From Devosia equisanguinis (GTDB taxonomy: Bacteria; Pseudomonadota; Alphaproteobacteria; Rhizobiales; Devosiaceae), in NCBI RefSeq assembly GCF_900631955.1, contig NZ_UZWD01000038.1, forward strand, positions 186,001 through 250,000: 64,000 nt of DNA, in the 5' to 3' direction. The notes beneath the pieces were generated by a model, which did not search any database, was not told where the DNA came from, and saw only the letters and a program-made list of their open reading frames with translations. Below are positions 9,051 through 12,092 of this stretch, one piece after another (position 1 is the first letter of the stretch; every line of letters begins with the position of its first letter). Made by a program: the position numbers and the translations under genes.

Positions 9051-9446
9051 ATGGAAGAGCAAACCCAAGTTCTCGAGCATCGCAGCGTCGGCCAGGCTAT
9101 GGGGCGCGGCGCACTGTGCAGTTGTCCCCATTGTGGCCAGGGCAAGATGTTTCGCGCCTATCTCAAGGTTGCGGACCAGTGCAATGTGTGCGGCGAGGAA
9201 CTCAATCATCATCGCGCCGATGATTTTCCGCCCTACATCGCCATCACCATTGTCGGGCACGTCATCATCTTCCTGATGCTGCACATGGACATGGCCTACA
9301 GGGTCGAGCCGATGACCTATGTCTGGACCATGATCCCGCTGGCCATTGTCCTGCCGCTGGCTATCCTGCCCTCGATCAAGGGGGCGATTGTCGGTCTGCA
9401 ATGGGCAAACCGCATGTATGGCTTCGGAACCGGCCAGGCCGACTGA
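9051..9446 (+). CDS. DUF983 family membrane protein
   Basis: A 131-residue protein of the DUF983 family. The N-terminal third carries a zinc ribbon, CPHCGQGKMF...CNVCGEEL, and two hydrophobic helices follow (IAITIVGHVIIFLMLHM and MIPLAIVLPLAILPSIK), so it should sit in the inner membrane with the ribbon in the cytoplasm. Its function is unknown. It is translated directly after rnr, a neighbourhood conserved in alphaproteobacteria. Confidence 0.9.
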   Translation: MEEQTQVLEHRSVGQAMGRGALCSCPHCGQGKMFRAYLKVADQCNVCGEELNHHRADDFPPYIAITIVGHVIIFLMLHMDMAYRVEPMTYVWTMIPLAIVLPLAILPSIKGAIVGLQWANRMYGFGTGQAD

Positions 9447-9453
9447 TCCGCGC

Positions 9454-9481
9454 TTGACAATCCAGCGCAAATCCGTAGTTT
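9454..9481 (+). promoter_or_regulatory. Sigma-70-type promoter of rpmG
   Basis: TTGACA (9454-9459) and TAGTTT (9476-9481) are separated by 16 bases, about 60 bases before the rpmG start and just after the DUF983 stop. A perfect -35 and an acceptable -10 make this one of the better promoters in the window. Confidence 0.55.
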
Positions 9482-9542
9482 GCGCTCAAATTCCGGCGCT
9501 GCCCCAGATGCAGCGCCTTTCGTTTTGTGAAGGACGACCCAA

Positions 9543-9710
<168 letters not shown>

Positions 9711-9735
9711 TTTGGTCTTCCAGCTTTGAATGCCC

Positions 9736-9769
9736 AAAACCCCGCAAGCGATTGCGGGGTTTTGTTTTT
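9736..9769 (+). terminator. Intrinsic terminator of rpmG
   Basis: AAAACCCCGCAA, a 4-base loop and TTGCGGGGTTTT form a perfect 12-bp stem followed by GTTTTT, 26 bases after the rpmG stop. Confidence 0.9.
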
Positions 9770-9811
9770 GTCGGAACTGTCGATGGAATGTTGTGATGTC
9801 CAGCTTGCGCC

Positions 9812-9840
9812 TTGACCCCAAACGTCATCAATCAATAGTT
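9812..9840 (+). promoter_or_regulatory. Possible promoter of the structured RNA at 9.85-10.04 kb
   Basis: TTGACC (9812-9817), a 17-base spacer and ATAGTT (9835-9840) lie in the gene-free stretch after the rpmG terminator. The predicted start point (about 9847) falls right before the first RNA stem, which supports a plus-strand transcript. The -10 is weak. Confidence 0.35.
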
Positions 9841-9844
9841 TCGA

Positions 9845-10040
9845 AGAAAGAGTGGCTGGTCCGGAGCGGCATGTCGAAGAGGCCACTCTAACCGCATCCG
9901 GACCAACCGCCCTACGGAACTCAGGAGTTGCGGCGGACCTGAGGTGGACCGTAGGGAACTGTAAAGGGTGAGCAACTGCCCCCTTCTGAACAGACACTAA
10001 GTCCGGGCCTGCCCATAACCAAGCAATTCCCTTGGTTAAC
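9845..10040 (+). ncRNA. Candidate structured non-coding RNA between rpmG and pleD
   Basis: No credible reading frame fills this gap, but it holds a dense series of perfect stems. (B) TGGTCCGGA-GCGG (9857-9869) pairs with CCGC-a-TCCGGACCA (9892-9905), 13 bp with one bulged A. (A) AGAGTGGC (9849-9856) pairs with GCCACTCT (9882-9889), which lies inside the loop of B. (C) CCCTACGG (9910-9917) with CCGTAGGG (9949-9956) encloses CTCAGG (9920-9925) with CCTGAG (9938-9943). (D) AAGGG (9964-9968) with CCCTT (9981-9985). (E) TAACCAAG (10016-10023) with CTTGGTTA (10031-10038). Strand is inferred from the promoter-like sequence; a minus-strand RNA downstream of pleD is the alternative. It does not resemble tmRNA, SRP RNA or RNase P RNA by eye. 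6S RNA or a rhizobial alpha-r sRNA family cannot be excluded. Confidence 0.45.
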
Positions 10041-10091
10041 GCCAAGCAACTCTTTGTTAACTATAACAGATAACCCTAACGGCGGTGGCGG

Positions 10092-11462
10092 CTAGGCGGC
10101 GTCGAAGATCACGCGGTTGCGTCCTTCGCGCTTGGCCCGATACAGCGCCACATCGGCCCGTTTGATCAGCATTTCAGGCGTGTCCGTCAGCGATTCATTG
10201 AGCGACACACCGACGGACACCGTAATCGACAGCGGACGCGGCAGACCGACGTCGAACGGCCGTTCGGCAATGGCCTGCCGCACCCGCTCAGCGACCACTT
10301 CAGCATTGCTCCAATCAGTGTCGGGCATCAGCACCACGAATTCTTCGCCGCCGAAGCGGCAGGCAAGATCGACGCCGCGAATATTGCGCTTCAGCCGGGC
10401 CGAGAACTCGCGCAGTACGGCGTCGCCGATGTCGTGGCCGTAATTGTCGTTCACCGACTTGAAGTGATCGATATCGAGAATCATCAGCGCCATGTCCCGT
10501 TCCTGGGCTTGCGCCTTGCCGAGCATGACGTTGAGATGACGATCAAAATAGCGACGGTTGTAGAGGCCCGTCAGCTCGTCGGTAACGGCCAGCGCCATGG
10601 TGTGGTTGACGCTTTCGCGCAATTCCATGGCATAGCGATAGCGGCGGATCTGCGTGCGTACCCGCGCGGCAAGCTCATTGCGCTCGACCGGACGGCTGAT
10701 GAAGTCGTTGACGCCCAAGTCAAGCGCCCGCACCACACGCGGCTTGTCGGCCTCGTCGGCCATCAGAATGATGGGCAGGTTGCGCGCATGCTCGAGTGTG
10801 CGGATCTGCGAGCAGACGCGCAGGGGATCGAAATCCGTCAGACTCATGCTGACCAGGGCCAGCTCGTAGGAGGCGCCAGAAACCTGAAAAACCGCATCGG
10901 CGGGCTGGGTCAACACATCGACCTGATGTTCCGGTGCAAGGTGGCCTTTGATGCGGTCGGCATGGCGCGCATCCGTATCAATAATCAGGACCGAGCCGCC
11001 ACTGGCGGAAATTTGGTCCATGGCGCGCAATGCGTCCTCGATGGCGATCTGCTGGCCGGTGAGCGCGCGGGCGCGCAGCTCGTCGGTGAGCGACTTGAGG
11101 CGGATGAGGCTTTTGACACGCGCCATCAGCTGCATGTCGTCGACGGGCTTGGTCAGGAAGTCGTCGGCACCAACCTCCAGGCCCTTGACCCGGTCGGAGG
11201 GCTGATCGAGCGCCGTCACCATCAACACCGGCACGTGATGGGTGCGCGAATCGGCCTTGAGGCGGCGGCAGACCTCGAAGCCGTCCATTCCCGGCATCAT
11301 CACATCGAGCAGGACGATGTCGATGTCCTGCGTCTGGCATATTTCAAGCGCCTGTTGCCCGGAGGTGGCCGTGACCACCTCGAAATATTCCGCGGTCAGG
11401 CGAACCTCAAGCAGGCGGATATTGGTGGGGATGTCGTCTACGATCAGTACGCGGGCGGTCAC
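10092..11462 (-). CDS. pleD: PleD-type response regulator with diguanylate cyclase output
   Basis: A 456-residue protein with two receiver domains and a C-terminal GGDEF domain, the architecture of Caulobacter PleD, which makes c-di-GMP at the differentiating pole. Receiver 1 keeps the phospho-acceptor in IVLLDVMMPGMDG. Receiver 2 has LVSMSL where the Asp would be, as expected of the dimerising adaptor domain. The cyclase motif is GGEEF, with an RGVD inhibitory site five residues before it, so product feedback is expected. It is read from the same strand as divK, 87 bases downstream. Confidence 0.95.
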   Translation of the reverse strand: MTARVLIVDDIPTNIRLLEVRLTAEYFEVVTATSGQQALEICQTQDIDIVLLDVMMPGMDGFEVCRRLKADSRTHHVPVLMVTALDQPSDRVKGLEVGADDFLTKPVDDMQLMARVKSLIRLKSLTDELRARALTGQQIAIEDALRAMDQISASGGSVLIIDTDARHADRIKGHLAPEHQVDVLTQPADAVFQVSGASYELALVSMSLTDFDPLRVCSQIRTLEHARNLPIILMADEADKPRVVRALDLGVNDFISRPVERNELAARVRTQIRRYRYAMELRESVNHTMALAVTDELTGLYNRRYFDRHLNVMLGKAQAQERDMALMILDIDHFKSVNDNYGHDIGDAVLREFSARLKRNIRGVDLACRFGGEEFVVLMPDTDWSNAEVVAERVRQAIAERPFDVGLPRPLSITVSVGVSLNESLTDTPEMLIKRADVALYRAKREGRNRVIFDAA

Positions 11463-11549: not shown

Positions 11550-11921
11550 TCAGGCGGGCCCAATATAGTGGGCAATGGTTTCCAGAAAGTGAGACACGGA
11601 AATCGGCTTGGAGATGTACCCTTCGCAACCGCCCTGCAAAATGCGCTCCTCATCGCCTTTCATCGCGAAGGCGGTGACAGCGATGACGGGAATATGGGCA
11701 AGCTGGTCATCGTCCTTGAGCCACTTGGTGACCACAAGGCCGGAAACTTCAGGCAGTTGGATATCCATCAGGATCAGGTCGGGCATGTGCGCGCGGGCCA
11801 AATCCAGTGCCTCCATGCCATTGCGCGTCTGGATGACGCGATAGCCACGCGATTCCAGCAGATCGTTGAAGAGCTTCATGTTCAGCTCGTTGTCTTCCAC
11901 GATCATGACCGACTTGGGCAT
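11550..11921 (-). CDS. divK: Single-domain response regulator DivK
   Basis: A stand-alone receiver domain of 123 residues. The acidic pocket is VEDNE, the phospho-acceptor Asp is in [13 protein letters not shown], and the switch Thr and Lys are in VTAFAMKG and YISKPIS. DivK relays the DivJ/PleC phosphorylation state to the DivL-CckA-CtrA pathway. The pairing with pleD on the same strand makes the identification firm. Two adjacent ATGs (11924 and 11921) follow GAGGA; the second has the more workable spacing. Confidence 0.95.
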
Positions 11922-12092
11922 CATTCCTCACTTCGGCGCCGGGAAAGATCGGCGAGACGTTCGATTCGAACGCCTGCCGTCAAACACCCTGTTCCGCGTT
12001 TTTCGCACCGGAACGAACCGGAAACCAGTTCGCATTCTCCTGCCGATGCTTTAGCATTCAAACCGTTACAAAACACCAAATGGGGGCGGGTC

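Follow-up and report, generated by a model that had tools for sequence, protein, structure and literature searches.

EcpR1 (SmelC291, Atu_C6; RF02500) is a small RNA whose family, location, structure and mechanism have already been published (PMC4414408; PMC3927594). In S. meliloti, the gene is described as lying between pleD (upstream, same strand) and a convergent rpmG, and its RNA as occurring in forms of 171, 142 and 101 nt, of which the 142-nt form includes the terminator (PMC4414408). The same report gives two 5' ends separated by 29 nt, of which the one further downstream probably arises from processing, and states that the RNA is processed, independent of Hfq and induced by stress, with a part played by ppGpp, and that it tunes cell-cycle genes (PMC4414408). 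Specifically, the loop of its first stem-loop (SL1) is reported to pair with the gcrA and dnaA mRNAs, and compensatory mutations partly restored regulation (PMC4414408). Another member, in Methylosinus sporium 5, is described as found via Rfam, adjoining rpmG in the S. meliloti orientation and having two predicted stem-loops (PMC12403871). A literature search with Devosia, small RNA and EcpR1 gave no publication joining Devosia and EcpR1 among the matches listed.

In the 64,000-nt stretch of the Devosia equisanguinis genome analysed here (the window), an undescribed-looking structured RNA had been proposed between rpmG and pleD. The following features frame this gap.

9543 to 9710, plus strand: rpmG, ribosomal protein L33 (TIGR01023, 80.2 bits against a cut-off of 23.95)
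9735 to 9764: terminator hairpin of rpmG (terminator scan, reported on the plus strand only)
9849 to 9958, minus strand: EcpR1 sRNA core, SL1 and SL2 (RF02500, single genome match, covariation)
10092 to 11462, minus strand: pleD (NCBIfam PRK09581 PleD, 652.5 bits against a cut-off of 474; Pfam receiver and GGDEF domains)
11550 to 11924, minus strand: single-receiver protein (Pfam Response_reg), which we take to be divK from its position; none of its best 25 NCBIfam rows passes its cut-off

The Rfam model RF02500 (Atu_C6, description 'EcpR1') matches positions 9958 to 9849 of the minus strand with 85.7 bits (gathering score, 60). The match spans model positions 1–113 of 113; it is the sole Rfam match above gathering in the rpmG–pleD gap, occurs on the minus strand only, and the core is matched once in the whole genome. 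Because the match is full-length and well above the gathering score, the RNA is known rather than new, the consequence that the original prediction had itself attached to a significant Rfam hit, and the novelty claimed there falls away: this is a family member at the expected place. From the sequence comparison, we regard it as almost certain that the stems between pleD and rpmG represent ecpR1 of Devosia, encoded on the minus strand. Seven further Rfam rows at about 9700–9845 (e.g. isrJ, rnk leader and Leu_leader) all score below their gathering scores, overlap the rpmG terminator hairpin and were rejected as chance matches.

EcpR1 was found in 71 of 75 Devosia genomes, that of the window included, and the four genomes lacking a match are all drafts (completeness 78, 90, 77 and 55%). 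Within a sample of the order, 204 of 297 genomes gave a match (E <= 0.001), 165 of them over the cut-off, and 93 gave none under the stricter filters applied to that sample; no match was obtained in any of 14 control genomes. Upstream of the RNA, pleD occupies the same strand at 30/30 Devosia loci and at 26/30 best-scoring loci from elsewhere in the order, and downstream of it an opposed rpmG is found at 29/30 and 24/30, respectively; a contig end cuts four of the best-scoring other loci. The conserved rpmG/divK-pleD neighbourhood had been anticipated and, for pleD and rpmG, is borne out by this synteny, and the site downstream of pleD and convergent with rpmG is the one expected for EcpR1.

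Structure, covariation and strand

All four stems originally predicted between rpmG and pleD were located in the sequence. The bulged stem is formed by GGTCCGGAGCGG (from 9858) and CCGC-A-TCCGGACC (from 9892), one 8-bp stem by CCCTACGG (9910) and CCGTAGGG (9949) around an inner CTCAGG/CCTGAG, a short stem by AAGGG/CCCTT near 9964–9985, and another 8-bp stem by TAACCAAG (10016) and CTTGGTTA (10031). Folding above chance, also predicted, was clear for the minus strand at 9835–9958 (−56.6 kcal/mol; z −5.15), with 0/200 shuffles equally stable. The adjoining 9958–10060 folds less well (minus strand, z −2.28; plus strand, z −0.34); therefore, the stems, although all present, are one structured RNA (9849–9958) plus a 5' leader and promoter region, and not four separate elements. 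This RNA contains both stem-loops expected for EcpR1 (RF02500).

9910 to 9956, minus strand: SL1, an 8-bp outer and a 6-bp inner stem (fold, covariation)
9854 to 9908, minus strand: SL2, a bulged stem of about 16 bp (two-sided changes at 13/15 pairs of helix 3 and at the one pair of helix 4)

Conservation was assessed on 120 loci, comprising 70 Devosia loci (of the 71 matches) and 50 others; the latter combine the 30 best-scoring loci of the order search with 20 hand-picked ones and are biased to good matches. In a structure alignment of 65 of the 120 loci, chosen for diversity, 93.6% of cells in the SL1 and SL2 structure were paired. Two-sided changes occurred at 17/30 pairs, with 14 falling in helices 3 and 4 of SL2 and three in SL1. 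The covariation score was reached by 0/500 shuffles and the number of two-sided pairs by 1/500, versions of the structure slid along the alignment were only 34–51% paired, and RNAalifold recovered the same stems (20 pairs). The proposal of a conserved structured RNA between rpmG and pleD is thus upheld by covariation. A competing helix, in which the SL2 loop (AGAGTGGC) would pair with the 3' tail (GCCACTCT) and which would exclude SL2, is perfect in this genome and pairs in 80.9% of cells of the 65 sequences, but its covariation was no better than that of shuffles (68/500 reached the score and 60/500 the number of two-sided pairs) and it was rejected.

Regarding strand, G-U pairs make up 160 alignment cells if the RNA is read from the minus strand and 30 if it is read from the plus strand (A-C on the minus strand), and 92 cells are other mismatches; this wobble asymmetry favours the minus strand. 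The original prediction had implied the plus strand, through a promoter TTGACC-N17-ATAGTT at 9812–9840. The sequence is indeed present on that strand, and the stems fold there too (9845–9990, z −2.50, 2/200 shuffles equally stable), as a new plus-strand structured RNA driven by this promoter would have it. However, the promoter-like site is close to chance level (one found, against a mean of 0.4, sd 0.6, in shuffles of 9300–10600) and its sequence showed no conservation across 30 aligned Devosia loci, the Rfam match is solely on the minus strand, and more than five times as many cells need G-U there. Such a plus-strand RNA is hardly credible. Because the Rfam match, the G-U/A-C asymmetry, a conserved minus-strand promoter-like pair and the gene orientation given in the literature agree, we place the RNA on the minus strand.

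At the 3' side, a terminator-like hairpin facing rpmG fits a loose A-run/stem/T-run pattern in 24/30 Devosia loci, the pattern being misplaced in at least two of the 24 (L002 and L005). By inference, this hairpin would be common to rpmG and the convergent ecpR1, which would end there.

Sequence upstream of the ecpR1 core

Three elements were recognized between the core and pleD.

9963 to 9986, minus strand: 5'-leader hairpin (fold of the leader; shape conserved, sequence variable within Devosia)
9995 to 10023, minus strand: promoter-like CTTGGT-N17-TTAGTG, which aligns with CTTGA-N17-TAGGTT in relatives
10056 to 10079, minus strand: conserved block TTAGGGTTATCTGTTATAGTTAAC, a candidate regulator site (69/70 Devosia loci; single genome match)

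A loose pattern for the promoter-like pair was matched in 66/70 Devosia loci, and the promoter of ecpR1 probably lies near 10023–9995, just downstream of pleD, with a predicted transcription start near 9988. This conserved pair bears on the reading of the structure as a pleD 3' untranslated region, released by processing and lacking its own promoter. The core does lie on the pleD strand and starts 133 nt 3' of the pleD stop codon, but the promoter-like pair stands between the two, and S. meliloti EcpR1 is described as an independent unit whose RNA is abolished by a sigma-70 −10 mutation (PMC4414408). We therefore consider a processed 3' untranslated region improbable and retain an ecpR1 gene with its own promoter.

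The leader stretch from −58 to −18 gave a mean z of −2.58 over the 70 Devosia loci, 65 of which were below −1; two control stretches gave −0.71 and −0.04. The same fixed stretch in the 50 loci of other genera gave a mean z of −0.52, with 19/50 below −1.

In an alignment of 30 Devosia loci, the block after the pleD stop reads TTAGGGTTA-N3-GTTATAATTAAC. TTAGGGTTA occurs upstream of EcpR1 in 69/70 Devosia loci and is then followed by TTAT-N2-TTAA in 67. Over 24 bp, the block (TTAGGGTTA-N3-GTTATARTTAAC) is nearly invariant in Devosia and contains a GTTA-N4-TAAC palindrome, both arms of which are altered together in locus L010. Just one match was found in this genome at <=3 mismatches, and a multi-copy regulator site was rejected on that ground. 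The CtrA box is TTAA-N7-TTAA, and no fit of the block to it was seen by eye. A hairpin joining the block and the −35 box (the 8-bp stem near 10016–10038) was not retained, being weakly supported (mean z −0.95; 32/66 loci below −1) among the 66 of 70 Devosia loci left after four lacking the promoter pattern were dropped.

Loops and mRNA complementarity

The loops of both stem-loops are strongly constrained.

9923 to 9940, minus strand: SL1 loop and flank AGGTCCGCCGCAACTCCT, putative target-pairing region by homology
9878 to 9889, minus strand: SL2 loop motif AGAGTGGCCTCT (68/70 Devosia loci)

Within the SL1 loop, CCGCCGCA is present in 65/70 Devosia loci and in all 50 other loci examined, and is absent from five Devosia loci (L083, L093–L095 and L100). 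The G+C-rich SL1 loop given for S. meliloti, UCCGCCGCAUCU (PMC4414408), and UCCGCCGCAACU here differ by one substitution, so the loop conservation expected for EcpR1 is found. L093, L094, L095 and L100 have GGAATGCCGCA in place of GGTCCGCCGCA and retain SL2; their pairing region is thus a naturally occurring variant. For SL2, the loop core GTGGCCTC was found in 44/50 other loci. The SL2 loop motif is described as less conserved in the S. meliloti paper (PMC4414408), whereas its constraint in Devosia is at least that of the SL1 loop core (68 versus 65 of 70). By eye, AGAGTGGCCTCT might fold on itself into a mini-hairpin of 4 bp, with UGGC as its loop. It is conceivable, though on balance doubtful, that in Devosia the SL2 loop AGAGUGGCCUCU is a second site binding mRNAs or a protein and that the structured leader and the upstream block are Devosia-specific control elements.

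The gcrA gene was sought in 31 genomes, and 30 yielded a usable locus (L130–L159, L151 being this genome). In silico, the gcrA 5' leader contains the pairing site expected for EcpR1: a leader element ends in TGYGGCGGACC, whose complementarity to the SL1 loop extends over 11 bp, and this motif is exact in 27/30 Devosia gcrA leaders and one base off in L130, L136 and L153. In this genome, the end of the element is separated by 55 nt from the first possible ATG downstream, by 76 nt from the following one and by 103 nt from the point where the Pfam match begins. The element as a whole (TTGGGGACACGATATCTCGTGCGGCGGACCC in L151) is strongly conserved in Devosia and includes a small hairpin, its part TGCGGCGGACC being complementary to the SL1 loop.

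The loop–gcrA duplex averaged −25.1 kcal/mol over the 30 leaders, compared with −15.0 (sd 1.6) for shuffled loops, none of which was as low (0/500). Of random segments drawn from the window, 3/1000 of 130 nt and 15/1000 of 450 nt reached the duplex energy of this genome (−26.6 kcal/mol). The 450-nt gcrA stretches of L136 and L154 had their best duplex at the start codon and not at the leader site. In G067, which carries a variant SL1 loop, the gcrA site is unchanged and pairing with its own loop is weaker (−19.3 versus −24.7).

Two GANTC sites, the sequence associated with CcrM, lie just upstream of the gcrA element in 30/30 loci. Since the element is just downstream of these sites and of promoter-like sequence, it may be near the mRNA 5' end. 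Its conservation could stem partly from another function of the leader.

The second validated S. meliloti target, dnaA, fared differently. The best duplex with dnaA of this genome (−20.6) was reached by 324/1000 random 450-nt segments and is not above background, and the mean over the 26 of 30 loci of at least 4200 nt was −20.7, against a background mean of −19.7. Because the dnaA region is no better than background, dnaA is unsupported as an EcpR1 target in Devosia; it has been reported as a target in S. meliloti and is not among the features that define RF02500. A functionless, degenerate ecpR1 relict would agree with this background-level complementarity and with the changed SL1 loop in one group (L093–L095 and L100). 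Nevertheless, both loops are strongly constrained across the 70 loci, covariation maintains the stems and the gcrA site is conserved, which makes a relict highly improbable.

A functional EcpR1 directed at gcrA is the reading we hold to be likely in Devosia. By analogy with S. meliloti, the RNA would be transcribed, induced by stress and processed to a core of about 110 nt comprising SL1 and SL2, and would act in trans as a repressor. The unpaired SL1 loop (CCGCCGCAAC) would pair with G+C-rich mRNA sites, foremost the one conserved in gcrA 5' leaders, and this pairing would lower translation of the cell-cycle regulator gcrA under stress.

Devosia EcpR1 among described members

Several features set the Devosia RNA apart from its described relatives. 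Compared with the RF02500 model, the SL1 loop continues with CAAC instead of CAUC, and the SL2 loop reads UCUUCG instead of UCCUCG. Unlike in S. meliloti, dnaA sites are unsupported. The 5'-leader hairpin, clear in Devosia, does not stand out in the 50 loci examined from other genera. The M. sporium 5 RNA is backed by mapped transcription units (PMC12403871), whereas Devosia EcpR1 is known from sequence alone, its identity, strand, structure, synteny and conserved gcrA complementarity having been computed in silico.

A candidate new RNA is thus resolved as a characterised cell-cycle sRNA, for which strand, limits and a likely control region in Devosia can be given. In common with EcpR1/SmelC291/Atu_C6, it matches the full-length model, has SL1, SL2 and the conserved SL1 loop, lies between (divK-)pleD and rpmG on the pleD strand, and is complementary to the gcrA leader. 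The in silico comparison argues that control of gcrA, and not of dnaA, is the part of EcpR1 regulation retained in Devosia.
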